Shown: positions 4,281-48,051 of the stretch, one piece after another
Layout: each line of letters opens with the position of its first letter
How positions within the stretch are numbered: the first letter of the stretch is position 1
Source: an uncultured bacterium
GTDB taxonomy: Bacteria; Bacillota; Clostridia; Oscillospirales; Oscillospiraceae
Length of the DNA: 48,115 nucleotides
NCBI GenBank assembly: GCA_948469375.1
Contig: CAOKLO010000024.1
Location: 1 to 48,115, forward strand
Direction of reading: 5' to 3'
Translations under genes and position numbers: made by a program
Notes under the pieces: generated by a model
Told to the model about the DNA's origin: nothing
The model's database searches: none
Seen by the model: only the letters and a program-made list of their open reading frames with translations

Positions 4281-5513
4281 TCAGCCCATCTGTGGGATCA
4301 CTGCGGTAAAGGTGATGACTCCATCCGCATAATAGTTGGAAATGCGGCCCTTATGCCGGGTGACAATCGCCTTGGCGGTGGACAGGCCAATTCCGTAACC
4401 TCCAGTGGAGCGGGCGCGGGAGGTATCTGCCCGGTAAAACCGGTCAAAGTAACGGGAGAGCTGGGCGGTGTCCACTCCCGCACATGGGTTTGATGCGGAA
4501 ATATAGATATTCCGCCCCCGTACAGATACAGACAGATGAATGTTCCCCGCTGGATCACAGTATTTGACCGCATTGTCCAGCAGAATTGAAAACAGACGAA
4601 AGAAATTGCCTTGGACACCTTTTAAGCTGATCTCATCAGGAATTTCCGATGTCAAGGTTTTTCCGTCCGCCTCAGCCAGCGGCTGAAAGGCATCTGCACT
4701 GGCTTGGGCAATCTCACTGATAGAAAATAGCTCCACTGTGTCCTCTTTGATCGTTTCCTCTGTGCGGGCCAGCTCCACCAGATTTTTGATGAGCCTGTCT
4801 AAACGTGTGATTTGAGATTTTGCGCTCTCCAGCCACTTGTCCTCTCCATAGGTATCTTCCAGCAGCCCCATGTCCGCCGACAGAATCGCCAGCGGCGTTT
4901 TCAGTTCGTGGGAAGCATCTGTAACAAACTGCCGCTGCCGCTCCAGATTATCTACAAAAGGACGGATTGCCCGTTTGGACAGAACCAGCAGCAGAGCAAA
5001 AACAGTCAGAACACAGGCCAGGAATATAATAACCGTAATGCGCAGCGTATTATTGGCTGCCTGGAGCTGGAGAAAACAGTCCAGCACAATGACTGTGCTT
5101 CCTCCGGCTTCATCCGGGAATACACCGAAACGGTAATGGTCTACATACCCACGCTTCGCTCCGGTATTGACGATCTGGCTGATGGTGTCCACCACTGTCT
5201 GGCGATCCAGTGCGGCAATATGGTCCAACACAACGGACCGGATTTCCTGTTGGGCGGTAAGCTCTACAATAAAATATCGCGTTTCAAAGGGTGTCTCCGG
5301 GGTGATCTGGAAGTTAAAGTCCGAGGGGTCAAAATGGGTGCCTGGGGGAAGAAAGGTTCCTCCGTTTTGATGAAGAATGGAAATAGCCTTGTCCACACGA
5401 TTAGCGGTAATAAAGTGGTTGCTAATACCGATTGCCGTGCAGAGAACAGCCATGGTTCCAATCAGGGAAGCCATCGCGATGAGAATGAATTTCCGGCGTA
5501 AGGAAGAAATCAT
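4281..5513 (-). CDS. Membrane sensor histidine kinase
   Basis: A 410-residue sensor kinase, the partner of the overlapping response regulator (4-base ATGA overlap at 5510-5513). I place the start at ATG 5513, preceded by TGGAGG; a longer open frame upstream is only the antisense-like extension into the regulator gene. Two membrane helices (about 8-30 and 157-178) flank an extracellular sensor region of about 125 residues, and no clear HAMP domain follows. The phosphoacceptor is His202 in FVTDASHELKTPLAIL. The N box is LLDNAVKYC (Asn314), and the G box is GYGIGLSTA (372-380). It would autophosphorylate in response to an envelope signal and pass phosphate to the regulator. The signal is unknown; operon partners (HtrA, lipoprotein) point to envelope stress. 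Confidence 0.93.
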   Translation of the reverse strand: MISSLRRKFILIAMASLIGTMAVLCTAIGISNHFITANRVDKAISILHQNGGTFLPPGTHFDPSDFNFQITPETPFETRYFIVELTAQQEIRSVVLDHIAALDRQTVVDTISQIVNTGAKRGYVDHYRFGVFPDEAGGSTVIVLDCFLQLQAANNTLRITVIIFLACVLTVFALLLVLSKRAIRPFVDNLERQRQFVTDASHELKTPLAILSADMGLLEDTYGEDKWLESAKSQITRLDRLIKNLVELARTEETIKEDTVELFSISEIAQASADAFQPLAEADGKTLTSEIPDEISLKGVQGNFFRLFSILLDNAVKYCDPAGNIHLSVSVRGRNIYISASNPCAGVDTAQLSRYFDRFYRADTSRARSTGGYGIGLSTAKAIVTRHKGRISNYYADGVITFTAVIPQMG

Positions 5514-6184
5514 GTTGTTTCCTCCAGCAGATACCCCTGACCCCGGCGGGCGGCAATGCAGACATTGGCCCCTACCGCCTCCAGCTTCCGGCGCAGATAG
5601 GAGATATAGGCCCAGACCACGTTGATCTCCGCCTCGCTGTCGTAGCCCCAGATATGCTCCATGAACTGCTCCGTGGAGATCAGCCGCCCCTCCTGCCGCA
5701 TAAGCAGTTCCAGCATTTGAAACTCCCGGTTGCCCAGCCGGACGCAGGCGGAGCCGCATTTCAATTCAAAGGTGGAGCAGTCCAGGGTAACATTCCCGGC
5801 AGAGAGAATCTTGGGCGTATATTCCCCGCCCCGGCGGGTCAGCGCCCGGACCCTGGCAACAAATTCCCGGTTGTCGAAGGGCTTGGGCAGGTAGTCGTCC
5901 GCCCCGCTGTCTAATCCAGCCACCCTGTCCTCCACCTGGCTTTTTGCTGTCAAGAGCAGTACCGGAGTGGAAATGTTTTTGGAGCGCAGGGCCTGCAACG
6001 CCTGGATACCGTCCAGCTTTGGCATCATGATATCCAGTACAATGCAGTCGTAATTTTCCGCCAGCCCATAGTCCAGCGCGTCCTGCCCGTTGTAGACCAC
6101 ATCCACGGAGTAATGCTCCCGCTTGAGCAGGGCCTCCAGCACCATGGTCATCTCCGGCTCGTCATCGGCAACTAAAATCCGCAC
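5510..6184 (-). CDS. OmpR/PhoB-family response regulator
   Basis: A 224-residue regulator with an N-terminal receiver domain (acidic pocket Asp8/Asp9, phosphoacceptor Asp51 in VLDIMMPKLDG, Thr79, Lys101) and a C-terminal winged-helix domain (about 125-222) ending RRGQGYLLEE. It is the cognate partner of the kinase that overlaps it. Because it is co-transcribed with HtrA, the alarmone synthetase and the lipoprotein, it probably autoregulates the operon. Candidate binding boxes (TTTTrAGT repeated every 11 bp) lie just upstream of the -10 elements of its own operon and of the Gld-type ABC operon. This spacing is the usual one for OmpR-family dimers. Target assignment is inference. Confidence 0.95.
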   Translation of the reverse strand: MRILVADDEPEMTMVLEALLKREHYSVDVVYNGQDALDYGLAENYDCIVLDIMMPKLDGIQALQALRSKNISTPVLLLTAKSQVEDRVAGLDSGADDYLPKPFDNREFVARVRALTRRGGEYTPKILSAGNVTLDCSTFELKCGSACVRLGNREFQMLELLMRQEGRLISTEQFMEHIWGYDSEAEINVVWAYISYLRRKLEAVGANVCIAARRGQGYLLEETT

Positions 6185-39926: not shown

Positions 39927-41133
39927 ATGTGTGAACGTGAAAACGAGAACATCGCTCAAGCGGTTCAGAAGAAACGGCGGATCATCGGCACGGCCATGCG
40001 CCGGGAGCCGGCGGACTTAGTGCTGAAAAACGCGTCGTATGTCAACGTCTTTACCAACGAGATTTCCACGGGGGATATTGCCGCCGGTGCCTCCTCTGAC
40101 CATGAATGCCGGAACATTCAGGATGCCATCGCAAAATTGGAACGAGGGCGTATATTATGATCCGGGAGGGAACTGCCGCCCGAAACTTGGAGGCTCTGGC
40201 GCATCTTCTCAATGAGACGTATGGAGCACGGTGCTTGCTCTGCACGGACGACAAGCACCCCATCGACCTTATAAAAAAGGGTCATATTGACGGAATCATC
40301 CGAGAGGCCATCCATATGGGGGCGGAGCCTATCGCCGTCATAAAAGCCGCCACGTTCAACGCGGCCCAATATTTCCGGATGCACGACCGGGCGCTATCGC
40401 GCCGGGATGGCTGGCTGATCTTGCAGTGGCAGACAATTTTGAAAACGTCTGCGTTGAGGCGGTCTATAAACGGGGTATTCTAGCTGCGGAAAATCAAGCG
40501 GCCTGCGTGTTCCGTATTCCATCCATAGATGTCCGCCTGACAGAACGGGCTCTCCGCACGTTCCAGCCGGTCAGGCTCCGTCCCGAGGACTTCAAACCCG
40601 GCGAGCCGTACCACGTCATCGGCATGGTCAACGGCGAAATCACCACCGTGGACGCCGGCTGCGCGAGAGAGCCTGGCACTTCCCAGAATATTCTGTGGGC
40701 CGCCGTAGCAGAGCGGCACCGGGGCACCGGTCATATCGGCATCGGTCTGCTCCATGGCTACGGCCTGAAATCCGGCGCTGTGGCGACCAGCATCTCGCAC
40801 GATTCTCATAACATCATTGTTGCGGGCACCTGCGCGGAGGATTGTTCCGCTGCCGCAAACCAAGCGGCTGATTTAAACGGCGGCATCGTGGTCTGGAGCC
40901 ATGGAAAACCGGCGGCAGAAGTTCCCCTGCCCATCGCTGGCATTATGAGCGACCGACCTTTGGAAACCGTCAACAGTGAGCCGGAGGCCGCCAAAAAAGC
41001 GGCTTACGCCCTGGGGGTAAATCCCAAGATCGACCCCTTTATGACGCTGAGCTTTATGGCTTTTCCGGTGATTCCGACTTTGCGGCTTACTACTCAGGGG
41101 ATCTTTGATGTTACAAAGCAAAGATACTTATAG
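39927..41133 (+). pseudogene. Adenine deaminase, internal deletion and frameshifts
   Basis: Three collinear pieces match adenine deaminase (adenine to hypoxanthine). The first is the N-terminus up to about NEISTGDIA, joined directly to ASSDHECRNIQDAIAKLERG. The second (from about 40145) begins MIREGTAARNLEALAHLLNE and reaches the AAQYFRMHDRA region. The third runs from about 40420 (DNFENVCVEAVYKRG) to the natural-looking end [11 protein letters not shown]. Full-length enzymes have about 570-600 residues. Here about 150-180 are missing, including the metal-binding His-x-His region. Frameshifts lie near 40145 and 40400-40425. It is not functional. Its former presence supports purine-type substrates for this locus. 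Confidence 0.85.
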
Positions 41134-42754: not shown

Positions 42755-43493
42755 GTGCCACCAAAAGAGACGATACCGATTGAGCGGCTGTTGGAAGGCT
42801 ATAAAACTGCTTTAGCCCAGACAGGATATAGCATCACCACAAAGTTGCTGTCGGTAAAACGCGCGAAGCTTATGATCCGGAGACACCTGAACGCAGGTCT
42901 GGCATATTTTGACCAGACCATCATCAATCGCTACATGGGTGAAATTGATGATAAGTATTTCAAGGGCAATATGCAGAAGAAGCACTATGAGCGGACTAAG
43001 CGAGAAATCGACCGCTTTGTCAGCTATGTCTGCACCGGGAGGATCGATTCTCTATCAAGTACGCTTCGAGGGGCAAGGCAAGAACTGACGCCAAAGTTTG
43101 AACAGATCGCAAAAGAATTTGTACCTCTGTGCTGTTGGGGAGGAAGCATATATCTTACCGGAGAAATATACTCCGCTCAAAAGCAGGGCAGCGGCCTACC
43201 TTTTTACTGATACGGAATCGACCGTTCTTTTCAGTGCCATTGACCAAATGCCGCCCACAAAAAAAGAACCCTTTTTGAATGAAATGGCCCATACCCTATA
43301 CCGCCTGATTTATACCTGCGGCCTGCGGCCAAATGAAGGCCGGGAACTGCTGGCAGAAAACATCAATTTTGAAACCGGCGGGATTCTCATTACGCATACC
43401 AAACGCAGCAAAGAACGCTTTGTTGTTATGTCGGATGATATGCTCGTTCTTGCCCGCAGATATGAACAGCGAAGAATTTCTGATTACCGTTAA
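42755..43493 (+). pseudogene. Tyrosine integrase, frameshifted and truncated
   Basis: GTG 42755 follows GGAGG at 9 bases. The first frame gives an N-terminal SAM-like DNA-binding domain (LLEGYKTALAQTGYSITTKL, then YERTKREIDRFVSYVCTGR). A frameshift near 43120-43140 moves coding to another frame with MAHTLYRLIYTCGLRPNEGR, which contains the first catalytic Arg of tyrosine recombinases, and it ends at 43493 soon after RYEQRRISDY. The later His-x-x-Arg and the Tyr nucleophile are missing. It was an element integrase and is now inactive. Confidence 0.8.
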
Positions 43494-43806: not shown

Positions 43807-43835
43807 TTGGCAAACTGGGAGAAAACGATTATAGT
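43807..43835 (+). promoter_or_regulatory. Sigma-A promoter of the YesN-type operon
   Basis: TTGGCA (43807-43812) and TATAGT (43830-43835) are separated by 17 bases and lie about 120 bases upstream of the regulator start. Confidence 0.7.
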
Positions 43836-43901: not shown

Positions 43902-43956
43902 GAAGACGAAACCCGCCCCGCTTTTGGGGATAGAAACGATACCGGAGGACTTGCGT

Positions 43957-45528
43957 ATGCTGAGCGTCGTTCTAGCGGATGATGAGAACAAAATCTTGCT
44001 GCTGCTGCAAAAGCTGATTGACTGGGAATCCCTGGGCTACGAGATTGCCGGAACCGCCAACGACGGCCTGCGGGCCCTGGAGCTGGTGCGGGAGAAACAG
44101 CCGGATTTGCTGATTACGGATGTGCGCATGCCGGGGTGCAGCGGAATCGAGCTGATTCAGCGGGCAAAGGACTTGCAGCCGAACCTGCACTTTATCATCA
44201 TCAGCGGATACCGGAAATTTGAATATGCGCAGAACGCCCTGAAATACGGCGTGGAGGACTATCTGCTCAAGCCCATCAAGCAGGATGACCTGATTGGCAT
44301 CCTGCTGCGGCTCAAGGACAAGCTGGGGGAGGAGGCTGCCCTGGAATTCCGGCTGAAGAAAAGCGGCGAGCGGCAGCAGGAGCTGCTGATGGCGTCCCTC
44401 GCCGACGTGTCGGAGCACCAGCAGTCCTTTATCGCCTATGCGGACAAGCGCTTCCACTCCTCCGGGGGAATCTGCTTTGCGGCCCTGGTGCGGGTGGATA
44501 TGACGGACGCCGCCTGGACTCCGGGCAGCTATCAGATCATTCTCCGGTACGCCCTGGAAATCGTCCGCCGGGAACTGCACGCCTTGACGGACGTCTATGC
44601 CGCCGCGGTGCGGAAAGAGGGCGTCGCCATCGTGCTGCGCATGAGCGCCTACCGGACGGTGGCGGTGAAACAGTGCTTTACGAAGGTTCAAAAGGAGGTG
44701 GAGCAGCACCGGGATATGTTTGGGAATCTCCGCTGCACCGTGTGCCTGGGCAGCCGGCAGGCCTCCTTTGAAGAGGTCGTTCTCTCCATGCGCCAGGCCC
44801 AGTGGCTTTGCCGGGACCATCTGTGCCGGGCCCAGTCCTGGCGGGACGCGGAGACCGAGCGGCCCGCTTTCGGCCAGCGGTATATGATGGAGGCCGCCCA
44901 GAAAAAGCGGTTTCAGGTGTCGGCGGAGTGCCTGGACGAGGCGCGTTTCCGGCAGGAGCTGGATGAGAGCTGCGGCGCGCTGCTGTCCTGCCCCGGCCTG
45001 AACGGCCAGATGCTGGAGGACTGGTTTTACCAGGTGCTGGAGGCGTGCCTCTACGGCATGCGGCAGACGGGCCAGGTGGACGAGCACTTCCCCGTGGAGA
45101 TGGAGGACCGCTTCTGGCTCTGCGCGGACGCCCAGGGCGTGCTCGCGCTGCTGCGGGAGAGCATATGCCAGCAGATCAGGCGACTGGAGGCCGAGCGCTC
45201 CCTGCGGGAGACGCGCCCCATCACCGACGCCAAGCGCTATATCCAGCAGCACTACCGGGAGGCGCTGCGCCTGGAAGACGTCAGCAGTACCGTGGGCTTT
45301 AACGCCACCTATTTTTCCACGCTGTTCAAAAAGGAAACCGGGCAGAATTTCGTGGATTACCTGACGGACCTGCGGATTGGCAAGGCCAAGGAGCTGCTGT
45401 CCGGCGAAGACCTGTCCGTCCAGGACGTCGCGGAGAGGGTGGGGTATCAGGACTTGAAATACTTCTCCAAGCTCTTCAAGAAAGTCACCGGCGTCAGTCC
45501 GTCGGACTATAAAAAGTTGTACAGGTAG
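43957..45528 (+). CDS. YesN-type response regulator with AraC DNA-binding domain
   Basis: A 523-residue regulator starting at ATG 43957 after GGAGG. The receiver domain (1 to about 120) has the acidic pocket Asp8/Asp9, phosphoacceptor Asp55 in LLITDVRMPG, and Lys105 in LLKPI. A long middle region of about 280 residues is followed by an AraC helix-turn-helix pair (about 420-520): ALRLEDVSSTVGFNATYFST, then VAERVGYQDLKYFSKLFKK. Members of this family control sugar uptake operons. The kinase gene follows 8 bases later. Its targets are not in the window unless it autoregulates through the palindrome at 43874-43901. Confidence 0.94.
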   Translation: MLSVVLADDENKILLLLQKLIDWESLGYEIAGTANDGLRALELVREKQPDLLITDVRMPGCSGIELIQRAKDLQPNLHFIIISGYRKFEYAQNALKYGVEDYLLKPIKQDDLIGILLRLKDKLGEEAALEFRLKKSGERQQELLMASLADVSEHQQSFIAYADKRFHSSGGICFAALVRVDMTDAAWTPGSYQIILRYALEIVRRELHALTDVYAAAVRKEGVAIVLRMSAYRTVAVKQCFTKVQKEVEQHRDMFGNLRCTVCLGSRQASFEEVVLSMRQAQWLCRDHLCRAQSWRDAETERPAFGQRYMMEAAQKKRFQVSAECLDEARFRQELDESCGALLSCPGLNGQMLEDWFYQVLEACLYGMRQTGQVDEHFPVEMEDRFWLCADAQGVLALLRESICQQIRRLEAERSLRETRPITDAKRYIQQHYREALRLEDVSSTVGFNATYFSTLFKKETGQNFVDYLTDLRIGKAKELLSGEDLSVQDVAERVGYQDLKYFSKLFKKVTGVSPSDYKKLYR

Positions 45529-45536
45529 GTGATTCC

Positions 45537-46355
45537 ATGTGGCTGCGGGCTATGAACAAGCTGCGCCGGGCGCTCCGGCGCTACCGGGATGACCGCGACC
45601 TGGAGGCCGTCCTGCTGCAGGACTGGGCGGGAGAACCGGCGCTGCGGGACTTTTTCTCCGATATCGAAGAGCGGCTCCACGGCGAGGAAATTGCCCGGCT
45701 GCGGCAAAAGCAGGCGGAATATCTGGCGCTGCAAAACCAGATCAACCCCCATTTTCTCTATAACGCCCTGGAGGCAATCCGGACGGACGCGCTGCTGGCG
45801 GACTGCGGGGAAATCGCCGAGACAACCGAGGCGCTGGCCACCTTCTTCCGCTACACCATTTCCAACGTGCAGGAGTACGTCACCTTCTCCGACGAGCTGG
45901 ACAACGCGGAGAACTATTTTACGATCCAGCGGTGCCGCTTTGGGGACAAAATCTCCATGGAGCTGGATATGGAGGACGAGAAGCTGCTGGAGGCGCGGAT
46001 GCCCAAGCTGATTTTGCAGCCGCTGGTGGAGAACGCGGTAGCCCACGGCTTGGAGGGCAAGCTGGGATATGGCACCGTCCGCATCGTTGTGGAAAACAGC
46101 GACCGGACGCTGTTCCTGCGGGTGCGGGACGACGGCGTCGGAATTCCAGACAGGCAGGTGGAGCGGCTGAACCAGCAGTTCGCAGGGGACGCCAGCACGG
46201 CGGCGGGGCAGCAGCGGGGCGGCATTGCCCTGCGCAATGTCAACAGCCGCATCCGCCTGATCTTCGGCGAGGACTATGGGCTCCGCATTTTCAGCGTGGA
46301 GGGGATCGGCACAGAGTGCTGCGTGACGCTGCCGCTGCTGTTCCAGGAGGAGTAG
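45537..46355 (+). CDS. Soluble histidine kinase (LytS/YesM type, no membrane segment)
   Basis: A 272-residue kinase of the His-kinase/HATPase family that pairs with YesN-type regulators. It has the phosphoacceptor His72 in LQNQINPHFLYNALE, the N box PLVENAVAHG, and G boxes DDGVGIP and GIALRNVNSRI. Usual members have two membrane helices, an outer sensor and a HAMP domain; here the N-terminal 60 residues are a charged helix only, so the protein must sense inside the cell or through a partner. The gene lies 8 bases after the regulator and 4 bases before the pseudo-ATPase gene. Confidence 0.92.
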   Translation: MWLRAMNKLRRALRRYRDDRDLEAVLLQDWAGEPALRDFFSDIEERLHGEEIARLRQKQAEYLALQNQINPHFLYNALEAIRTDALLADCGEIAETTEALATFFRYTISNVQEYVTFSDELDNAENYFTIQRCRFGDKISMELDMEDEKLLEARMPKLILQPLVENAVAHGLEGKLGYGTVRIVVENSDRTLFLRVRDDGVGIPDRQVERLNQQFAGDASTAAGQQRGGIALRNVNSRIRLIFGEDYGLRIFSVEGIGTECCVTLPLLFQEE

Positions 46356-46359
46356 GGCC

Positions 46360-47787
46360 ATGAAAGAGGAAGTGATCCGGGTGGAACACGGCTGCTTCCG
46401 GCGGGAGGACCTGTCGTACCGCTTTGACATCTCCATCTCCAGGGGGGAGTGCGTCGGCGTGTATGTAGACGACCATCTCTCCTCCGGCACGGCCTATCTG
46501 GAGGTCTTCAAGGGCGGCACGCGCATCAAAAGCGGCAGGGCCTTTACCTGCGGCCGCCGGGTGGGGATGCCGGAGCTGGAACGCTGGCTCCAGCAAAACA
46601 GCGTCATCATCGATAAGCACCGCTTTGACTCCACGGAACTGACCATGGGGGACTTTGTAATCTCCCTGGGAAAGCTGGCGGGCTGGCGGCAGAGAAAGCG
46701 CGCCGAGCAGCGGCTGCGGGGCCCGGAGTCCGCGGCGGTGCTGCGGCAGATGGAGCTGGACGCCGCTCCAGACGTAAAGCTGGCGGAGCTCTCCATGCTG
46801 GACTATTACCGCCTCTGCGTATTCCGGGTGTGGTTCTGGAGGGGCGGGCTGCTGATCCTGGACCGTCTCACGGAGATTCTGCGCCAAAGGGACCTGGAAA
46901 AGATGATGCGGTGCGTCCAGCTGCTGCTGGGGCAGGGGGCGGCGGTGATCCTGCTGGACCTGGACGATATGTTTATGCGCCGCTATTCGGACCGGATCGA
47001 CGTGGTCAAAAATCGAAAGACCTGTTACCGCCTGTACCCGGAGGAGTACGGGGAGCAGCTGTATGAAATCCTGGGCTGGAAATGCCGCAGCGGCGGCGTG
47101 GAACCGGGCGGACGCCAGGGCGGCGGCAGGGTCGTGCTTCAGGCCTCCGGCCTGGAGCTCCCCGGAATCCCGCCCCTGGACTTTCAGATCCAGAGCGATG
47201 AAATCGCCTTCCTGCGGGACGAAAACTACAGCACGGCCGCCAGGCTGCGGGACTGCCTTTTGGGCGGCCAGCGATGGAACGGCGGTACATTCCACCTGGA
47301 CGGAACCGCTTACGCCCCGGGAGAGCTGTCCAGGCTGATTGGCACGGAGATCGGAATCCAGCTGGAGCGCCCGGACCGCCCGGGCGGAGTGCTCTTCGGC
47401 AATTTGAGCGCGCTGGACAACCTGAGCATCTGCCTGCTCCCAAAGGCTGGCCGGAGTATCGCGGATTGGCGGGTCATGGAGAATATTTTAGAGGAGGCGT
47501 CCCGGTGGTTCCCGCGGGAGGACCTGCAGCGTCCCCTGTACACATGGCCGCTGCCCCAGCGTCTGCGCTTTTCCTATTATAAATGGTATCTCCTGAACCC
47601 GCGCCTGCTGATCTGCTTTTTCCCCTTCGCGGGCCAGGAGCCAGCACACCACGAGATGATCATTGACCTGCTGGTGACCTGCGCGGAGAGAGGCATGGCC
47701 ATCTGGGTGATTTCCTCGGGGATCGACGCCATTTGCGAGAAAACCAAGAATGAGGCGTTTCTCAGGCGTCTGCGCTATATCAACTGA
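46360..47787 (+). CDS. Degenerate two-domain sugar-ABC-ATPase-like protein (pseudo-ATPase)
   Basis: A 475-residue protein with the length and domain order of RbsA/MglA-type ATPases (usually about 500). The family outline is visible: Walker B-like GGLLILDRLTEIL (162-174), second-half PGGVLFGNLSALDNLSI, then RLRFSYYKWYLLNPRLLICF (401-420) and WVISSGIDAI. The chemistry is lost. The first P-loop position (about 34-44) reads VYVDDHLSSGT without Lys. The signature is ELSMLDYYR. The catalytic Glu is Arg169. The H-loop reads LLDLDD. The second P-loop (about 284-294) reads FLRDENYSTAA, and its Walker B Asp is absent. No membrane segment is seen. ATP hydrolysis is very unlikely. Clean codons and tight linkage argue for a working non-catalytic protein, perhaps the sensor or adaptor of the soluble kinase. 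Confidence 0.75.
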   Translation: MKEEVIRVEHGCFRREDLSYRFDISISRGECVGVYVDDHLSSGTAYLEVFKGGTRIKSGRAFTCGRRVGMPELERWLQQNSVIIDKHRFDSTELTMGDFVISLGKLAGWRQRKRAEQRLRGPESAAVLRQMELDAAPDVKLAELSMLDYYRLCVFRVWFWRGGLLILDRLTEILRQRDLEKMMRCVQLLLGQGAAVILLDLDDMFMRRYSDRIDVVKNRKTCYRLYPEEYGEQLYEILGWKCRSGGVEPGGRQGGGRVVLQASGLELPGIPPLDFQIQSDEIAFLRDENYSTAARLRDCLLGGQRWNGGTFHLDGTAYAPGELSRLIGTEIGIQLERPDRPGGVLFGNLSALDNLSICLLPKAGRSIADWRVMENILEEASRWFPREDLQRPLYTWPLPQRLRFSYYKWYLLNPRLLICFFPFAGQEPAHHEMIIDLLVTCAERGMAIWVISSGIDAICEKTKNEAFLRRLRYIN

Positions 47788-47820
47788 CTGTGCCTGCCCC
47801 ATTTGACGTCCACAAACTGG

Positions 47821-47859
47821 AAAAGAGCCGGGAGTCCCAACGCCTCCCAGCTCTTTTTT
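47821..47859 (+). terminator. Terminator of the YesN-type operon
   Basis: AAAAGAGCCGGGAG pairs with CTCCCAGCTCTTTT (one mismatch), followed by TTTACC. It lies 33 bases after the last stop. The remaining stretch to 48051 shows no recognisable gene. Confidence 0.85.
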
Positions 47860-48051
47860 ACCTTTGGCGCAGGCCGGACAGAGAAAACAGAGAGTTCCGG
47901 TTTGTGCCGCTGCCCAGGACTGTGTCCATCCGGAGCTGTTCTCCTGTTGGGGAGGACCTATGTGTCCGCCCCTCTCCGAGCTTCCGATAGGCGGGCGGAG
48001 ACGCAGGTCCGCCCCCGCGCCGCATGCCGCTAGACACCCCCGGGTATGCAG

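Follow-up and report, generated by a model that had tools for sequence, protein, structure and literature searches.

A degenerate RbsA-type ATPase encoded with a sensorless YesM-type kinase and a YesN-type regulator: a candidate third component of a clostridial two-component system

Sugar sensing with a transporter-derived third protein encoded beside a kinase and a regulator has been described for XylFII-LytS and CuaD-CuaS-CuaR (CuaDSR), in which, according to the accounts in PMC10384115 and PMC9769921, the outer domain of the kinase is bound by an extracytoplasmic binding protein as the third component, with about 266 residues lying between the helices of CuaS. In the PstSCAB-PhoU-PhoR system, the kinase PhoR lacks a periplasmic sensor, and PMC5775613 puts forward the idea that it reads the conformations of PstSCAB; the kinase BceS is reported to be in complex with its ABC transporter (PMC10314905). 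In this study, we analysed a stretch of 48,115 nucleotides (contig CAOKLO010000024.1, from an uncultured member of the Oscillospiraceae; referred to as "the window") that carries a unit of three genes, the trio, encoding a YesN-type response regulator (RR), a YesM/LytS-type histidine kinase, and a pseudo-ABC protein (PA) with two degenerate RbsA-like nucleotide-binding domains. We propose, as a reading that we hold to be evenly poised, that the trio is a three-component system in which PA, a dead paralogue of RbsA, is the cytoplasmic input subunit of a YesM-type kinase without a sensor and docks on an RbsC-type permease.

The trio has the same kinase and regulator domains and the same gene order as YesM-YesN and LytS-type systems, but its kinase has no extracellular sensor and an extra pseudo-ABC gene is attached. 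PA shares its fold, its length and two tandem ABC domains with the fused ATPases RbsA, MglA, AraG and YtfR, whereas it lacks their ATP motifs, is encoded with a kinase, and usually lies near a second RbsA that keeps Walker A. As in XylFII-LytS and CuaDSR, a transporter-derived protein is encoded beside kinase and regulator; however, it is a relative of an ATPase here, and the kinase has no outer domain. The lack of a periplasmic sensor in the kinase is shared with PstSCAB-PhoU-PhoR, although that system uses the own ATPase of a working importer, PstB, together with PhoU, and not a dead ATPase copy. Likewise, the trio type of kinase resembles BceS in its short membrane anchor, the transporter complex being that of BceS, but the Bce transporter is of another, MacB-like type, has a working ATPase, and makes contact via membrane helices. 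By analogy, the trio would work most like the transport sensing of Pst-PhoR and Bce, while it looks most like XylFII-LytS and CuaDSR. Neither a description of the PA unit nor a dedicated dead ABC ATPase as the third component of a two-component system was found in the open-access literature searched, a scope outside which most subscription papers lie. For kinases, it is well established that pseudo-enzymes can act as signalling parts.

The RR gene (positions 43957..45528, plus strand) encodes a receiver and an AraC-type DNA-binding domain (Pfam Response_reg, E 1e-25; HTH_18, E 1.7e-22). It is followed after 8 bases by the gene for the kinase of 272 residues (45537..46355, plus strand; Pfam His_kinase PF06580, E 1.7e-23, and HATPase_c) and, after another 4 bases, by the gene for PA (46360..47787, plus strand; 475 residues). 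By these domains, kinase and RR belong to the YesM/YesN two-component type. A first-pass annotation, made from the sequence alone, had given the three genes this order, strand, spacing and position and the third a clean frame, all of which is correct; the frames of all three are clean. It had also described the kinase as free of any membrane or extracellular sensor, and hydropathy agrees: 69 residues lie ahead of the NPHFL phospho-acceptor motif, and an N-terminal transmembrane or hydrophobic segment is absent.

PA is probably derived from the ATPases of RbsA-type sugar importers, with the RbsA/MglA/AraG/YtfR type as its ancestor. It has no match in Pfam, and its matches in NCBIfam are weak ones to RbsA-type ATPases, the best being YtfR, which scores 47 bits (E 9.9e-13) where the cut-off is 850; across the PA family the profile matches are all far below the NCBIfam cut-offs shown, and they are full-length for the relatives L103, L107 and L109. 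A fold model made with 20 aligned relatives (mean pLDDT 79.7, pTM 0.54) has two tandem ABC domains, and its top Foldseek matches are tandem ABC ATPases such as DppD (E 7.6e-22). A second model, of the better-connected relative L100 (pLDDT 82.7, pTM 0.78), also matches tandem ABC ATPases. Homology and the two tandem domains place PA among the RbsA-type ATPases by descent, and the two-domain outline that had been read from the letters is thus found again in the predicted structure.

The ATP motifs were scored in an alignment of 20 PAs and 39 active RbsA-type proteins, in which PA is degenerate at most of them. Walker A, the Q-loop Gln, the catalytic Glu and the switch His are lost in the first half, and the signature and Walker B in the second; as a group, the 20 PAs mostly lack Walker A, the signature and the Walker B motif of both halves as well as the H-loop His. 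Mean retention at the conserved columns of the lost motifs is 0 to 0.31, the Q-loop Gln is kept in 5/20, and GENGAGKST, the Walker A of active RbsA, in 0/20; in a larger set of 80 PAs (see below), none matches the Walker A pattern G....GK[ST]. In the window, the place of the first Walker A (46468..46494, plus strand, counted from the protein sequence) reads DDHLSSGTA, and that of the first Walker B and D-loop (46852..46881, plus strand) reads LILDRLTEIL, with Arg169 at the position of the catalytic Glu, as had been claimed. The Walker B Asp next to it (D168) is present in the window PA and lost in 16 of the 20. Judged by these motifs, PA would be without ATPase activity. Other losses had been put too broadly. 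The first Walker A is indeed gone, but the loss of "both" P-loop lysines was overstated, as ordinary RbsA itself carries Arg instead of Lys in its second Walker A, for example in B. subtilis RbsA/NupO (PMC11466899). Similarly, the switch His is lost in the first half, but the second switch of ordinary RbsA is SSE and not His in 35/39; and while the second half has lost its signature, that of the first half varies even among active RbsAs.

PA is under purifying selection. Its dN/dS was 0.06-0.22, close to the values for RR (0.01 to 0.24), in the six pairs for which dS was finite; dS ranged from 0.16 to 1.14 and was near 1 in three of these pairs, and another four pairs were saturated. The window PA gave 0.18-0.22 against its two relatives (dS near 1), far from the ratio near 1 that had been named as the mark of a recent pseudogene. 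In a tree of 59 proteins, the 20 PAs and the 39 active RbsAs lie on opposite sides of a single branch (100/100, with long-branch warnings), and 11 of the 14 RbsAs from PA loci form one clade.

The linkage of PA to RR and kinase was examined in named species, using one peptide pattern inside the first post-Q segment (described below); the best 80 of 85 loci, clostridial by record title and some of them the same records as genomes of the family and class searches below, include Enterocloster, [Clostridium] symbiosum, Blautia schinkii, Ruminiclostridium cellobioparum, Kineothrix, Anaerocolumna, Caproicibacter and Muricomes. RR and kinase are directly upstream of PA in 71 of the 76 loci with at least 2.8 kb of upstream flank, and in 19 of 20 fetched regions, making the three genes a conserved unit. 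The five exceptions are L192, with a kinase only and no RR upstream; L136-L138, with RR, kinase and RbsA downstream of PA and one large gene between (its frames have 678-798 codons); and L128 (G737), where a different contig carries a kinase of the trio type, followed after about 170 bases by an RbsA. At L097/L195 (G349), the PA frame is broken despite the presence of RR, kinase and importer. The kinase and PA genes overlap in 45/74 pairs, 31 of them by four bases (with PA starts set at the beginning of the match), which points to coupled production.

The same pairing was seen from the kinase side. A kinase profile run on 291 genomes (E <= 1e-65, open frame of at most 373 residues) gave 16 matches, 11 of which are loci already known to have PA, the window included. 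The neighbour is a Walker-less RbsA-like protein in 15/16 (one cut by the contig end, one on the opposite strand) and a partly degenerate one in the other. In G422, the contig edge falls inside a Walker-less ABC fragment next to the kinase, while in G470, G685 and G546 a Walker-less RbsA-like protein, found without any PA sequence, adjoins the kinase (on the opposite strand in G470). The partly degenerate protein, in G557 (L231, 2779-4467), lies just upstream of RR with the same kinase type; it keeps Walker A (GINAAGKST, and GFIGSGKTE in the second half) and has both Walker B motifs recognisable and both signatures lost, and its sequence would suit a transitional form. The pairing of kinase and PA therefore holds beyond the original family, and linkage from both sides rules out a chance neighbourhood.

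RbsA-like proteins at large behave differently. When 200 genomes of the family and the own genome were searched at the protein level, 30 loci besides that of the window were found (29 + 1). Walker A is absent in 5/30, and RR and kinase adjoin all five; no RR and kinase were seen in the examined flanks of the 25 loci with an intact Walker A. An intact majority among homologues had been named as an outcome that would tell against a dedicated degenerate protein. Such a majority exists among RbsA-like proteins in general (25/30), but degeneracy is the rule within the trio (0/80 with Walker A), and the intact homologues are the pumps, none of them with RR and kinase in the examined flank. Profile searches found PA in 9/400 genomes of the family (the own genome and one partial case included), 13/391 of the class (own included) and 3/299 of the phylum, the profile being blind to the window type and missing the own genome in the last; all three frequencies are lower bounds, with more distant PA-like proteins lying below the score gap between PA and RbsA. 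That gap, which appeared clean, had suggested a closed family, an idea given up when the kinase-side search found distant PA-like proteins under it.

The kinases linked to PA have no visible sensor of their own. Seventy of the 74 have one or two close hydrophobic spans covering 24-63 residues, with loops of at most 7; no span was found in two, and two are cut at the N-terminus. Hydropathy revealed no extracellular domain between helices in any PA-linked kinase with a visible N-terminus, so they differ from YesM/LytS kinases with an own sensor, in which an outer domain lies between two membrane helices. In the window group (window, L090 and L095) and in L094, the kinase has no N-terminal membrane segment at all.

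PA is also linked to importers of the RbsABC type. A gene for RbsA, RbsC or the binding protein lies within about 6 kb of PA in 72/80 loci (70 on the same strand, plus L136 and L177 by closer inspection). An RbsA with Walker A is downstream of PA in 37/80, within 710 bases in 33 of these, upstream RbsAs in this set being cut by the flank end. In the 20 fetched regions, a complete RbsA-RbsC-binding-protein importer follows PA in 11 and precedes RR in another 3, and all 14 keep Walker A in their RbsA; an importer is partly visible before the contig end in L096, L100 and L102, and none was found in the fetched regions of L094, L107 and L108. The domains of these importers are BPD_transp_2 and Peripla_BP_4, and each has its own RbsA bearing Walker A. 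The first-pass annotation had suggested instead that PA may dock on the two importers of the window that lack an ATPase. The first of these consists of an SBP_bac_8 protein and two BPD_transp_1 proteins, the second is represented by an SBP_bac_8 protein, and we take both to be CUT1-type. Docking on them was rejected because the relatives adjoin RbsABC-type importers, and the ATPase-less importers are probably the wrong target. The sugar genes at PA loci vary. Inositol-catabolism-like genes lie upstream of RR and run into the trio and importer in L100, L103 and L105 (a TPP enzyme and KduI/IolB by Pfam in L100, with which the other two were clustered), and a D-lyxose isomerase and/or PfkB kinase is encoded in L091, L096 and L109. 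The substrates probably differ between loci.

Two post-Q segments of PA are proposed to face the permease, the first at 46627..46671 (DSTELTMGDFVISLG; LCPHLSVAENIFLGR in RbsA) and the second at 47389..47430 (VLFGNLSALDNLSI), both on the plus strand. In non-redundant rows of 14 PAs and 17 active RbsAs, they are the top two 12-residue conservation windows of PA (0.640 and 0.636, a gap-rich N-terminal window being left out), whereas the five best-conserved windows of active RbsA are ATP motifs. The 80-locus set was not used for this ranking because its search pattern lay inside the first post-Q segment. Retention relative to RbsA is 0.65 and 0.50 in the two segments versus 0.36 outside the listed motifs. 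The post-Q stretch of PA and RbsA presumably leads into a helical subdomain equivalent to the coupling-helix site of MalK. According to PMC3150292, coupling helices dock on this subdomain in MalK; and PMC11466899 describes RbsA as a single polypeptide that contains both nucleotide-binding domains and pairs with a dimer of the permease (RbsA:RbsC2), a stoichiometry at which a dead paralogue could take its place one for one.

Partial distance correlations over 54 loci are 0.47 for PA-kinase and 0.49 for PA-RR, and 0.30 for RR-RbsC. PA distances follow those of kinase and RR and not those of RbsC, which ties PA to the signalling side. The role of kinase sensor or adaptor assigned to PA in the first-pass annotation fits these values, as well as the sensorless kinase and the coupled genes; its choice of importers is not supported. 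In the mechanism that we propose, PA would take turns with the true ATPase, RbsA, in docking on RbsC, for which it would use its conserved post-Q faces; a sugar-loaded binding protein would alter the shape of the permease; PA, having lost its ATP motifs, would relay this change to the kinase; the kinase would phosphorylate or dephosphorylate the YesN regulator; and the regulator would switch the importer and sugar genes. A more specific form of this mechanism, which we put forward tentatively and consider somewhat doubtful, is a motor swap, in which the dead copy replaces RbsA on some RbsC dimers, and binding protein, permease and PA make up a transport-dead receptor that drives the sensorless kinase. 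If this is true, a single importer family would have two forms, one that pumps and one that listens, depending on which ATPase is bound, and the protein of L231/G557, with Walker A kept and both signatures lost, would mark the path to the receptor form.

Several observations weigh against the proposed system. The partial correlation of PA is 0.01 with RbsC and 0.15 with the binding protein over the 54 loci. The lead of the post-Q segments is small (the next two windows score 0.627 and 0.626), their retention is based on few columns (5 and 2 conserved at >=80%), and no solved chain matches the RbsA of the relatives at E <= 1e-60. No importer gene is present in the examined flank of 8/80 loci, several of these flanks being short and L192 having an RbsA remnant. 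The trio is patchy (9/400 family genomes), and the 8 further genomes searched from the window's genus all stayed at or below the RbsA score level in the profile search; absence from related genomes, an outcome that had been set against the idea from the start, thus applies among close relatives, whereas in the wider group it does not. The trios closest to that of the window are in G155 and G355, of another genus, and the trio is perhaps transferred between genera as well as patchy; horizontal transfer and bin contamination are both possible sources of this pattern.

Finally, the window trio has no importer beside it. A block at 43941..47793 (plus strand) is common to the window and to L090 and L095 (78% and 74% nucleotide identity); it starts and ends at the trio, and in L090 and L095 an RbsA-RbsC-binding-protein importer lies just ahead of RR. 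No orthologue of that importer was found in the window's own assembly, where the best RbsA is 42-44% and the best binding protein 30% identical; the genome has four full RbsA-type proteins, 37-44% identical to the RbsA of the relatives, and no close binding protein. The importer of the window is lost or not assembled, and its absence, like the ownership of the contig, is uncertain because the assembly is 91.6% complete with 6.2% contamination. The window trio may act for a different importer or have been separated from the one it belonged to.

Among the other explanations, PA might be a soluble cytoplasmic sensor whose old ATP sites bind another small molecule (e.g., a sugar phosphate) and which signals to the kinase without any permease. 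We regard this as unlikely. The co-variation of PA with kinase and RR but not with RbsC would suit it, and in the main group the former Walker B regions have a consensus of their own (RDISN-like, QPFxxADMYLR; column majority), as if the sites had been rebuilt; however, the best-kept internal segments are the post-Q segments and not the old P-loops, albeit by a small margin, and the linkage to RbsABC importers is strong (72/80). Less probably, PA could be a throttle on transport: it would compete for the permease with RbsA, and being encoded in the operon of the kinase would govern nothing but the timing of its production. The RbsA-like fold and the kept permease-facing segments would allow this, but the sequence of PA tracks kinase and RR instead of RbsC, its gene is tightly joined to that of the kinase (45/74 overlapping), it persists away from importer genes in the window, G737 and L136-L138, and the kinases show no other input domain. 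It is still more doubtful that PA is an adaptor with the kinase as its sole partner, a structural cap that stands in for a membrane anchor, and that the signal has another source: the kinases of the window, L090, L095 and L094 indeed have no N-terminal membrane segment and PA-kinase co-variation is strong, but 70/74 kinases have a short anchor and keep PA nevertheless. Decay of PA as an RbsA pseudogene, to which the lost ATP motifs and the broken frame of L195 (G349/L097) might point, is refuted for the family by dN/dS, by its place on one side of the 100/100 branch, and by the length of the first open stretch, which is 440 residues or more in 79/80 relatives.

The surroundings of the window trio may bear on how it came to stand alone. 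A stand-alone C-terminal domain of adenine deaminase (40426-41130) and a phage-integrase fragment (43098-43490) lie upstream and may be what remains of an insertion event by which trio and importer were parted. A promoter-like site, TTGGCA-17-TATAGT, is located ahead of the RR gene (43807..43835, plus strand; 2 such sites in the scanned region versus 1.0 expected by chance), and TTGGCA-17-TATAAT was seen by eye at the matching place in L090. A stem-loop with a T run 3' of PA (47818..47860, plus strand; -21.2 kcal/mol, z -4.7) is a likely terminator, seen by eye at a place where the terminator scan had no entry on the plus strand. As promoter-like site and likely terminator are kept, the trio should be able to be expressed alone. 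In L090, a 19-pair stem-loop with a T run (5478-5530; fold z -7.0) directly follows the promoter-like site ahead of the RR gene and is a candidate importer terminator or leader attenuator.

The PA unit is present in many clostridial records, Lachnoclostridium also among them, in loci with inositol- or lyxose-type sugar genes; Enterocloster, Blautia and Lachnoclostridium have a gut habitat. If the proposed system is real, it would account for the way in which kinases lacking a sensor domain keep track of the sugar supply. It would also be a warning for annotation: proteins likely labelled as ATP-binding proteins of sugar ABC transporters can be regulators and not pumps.

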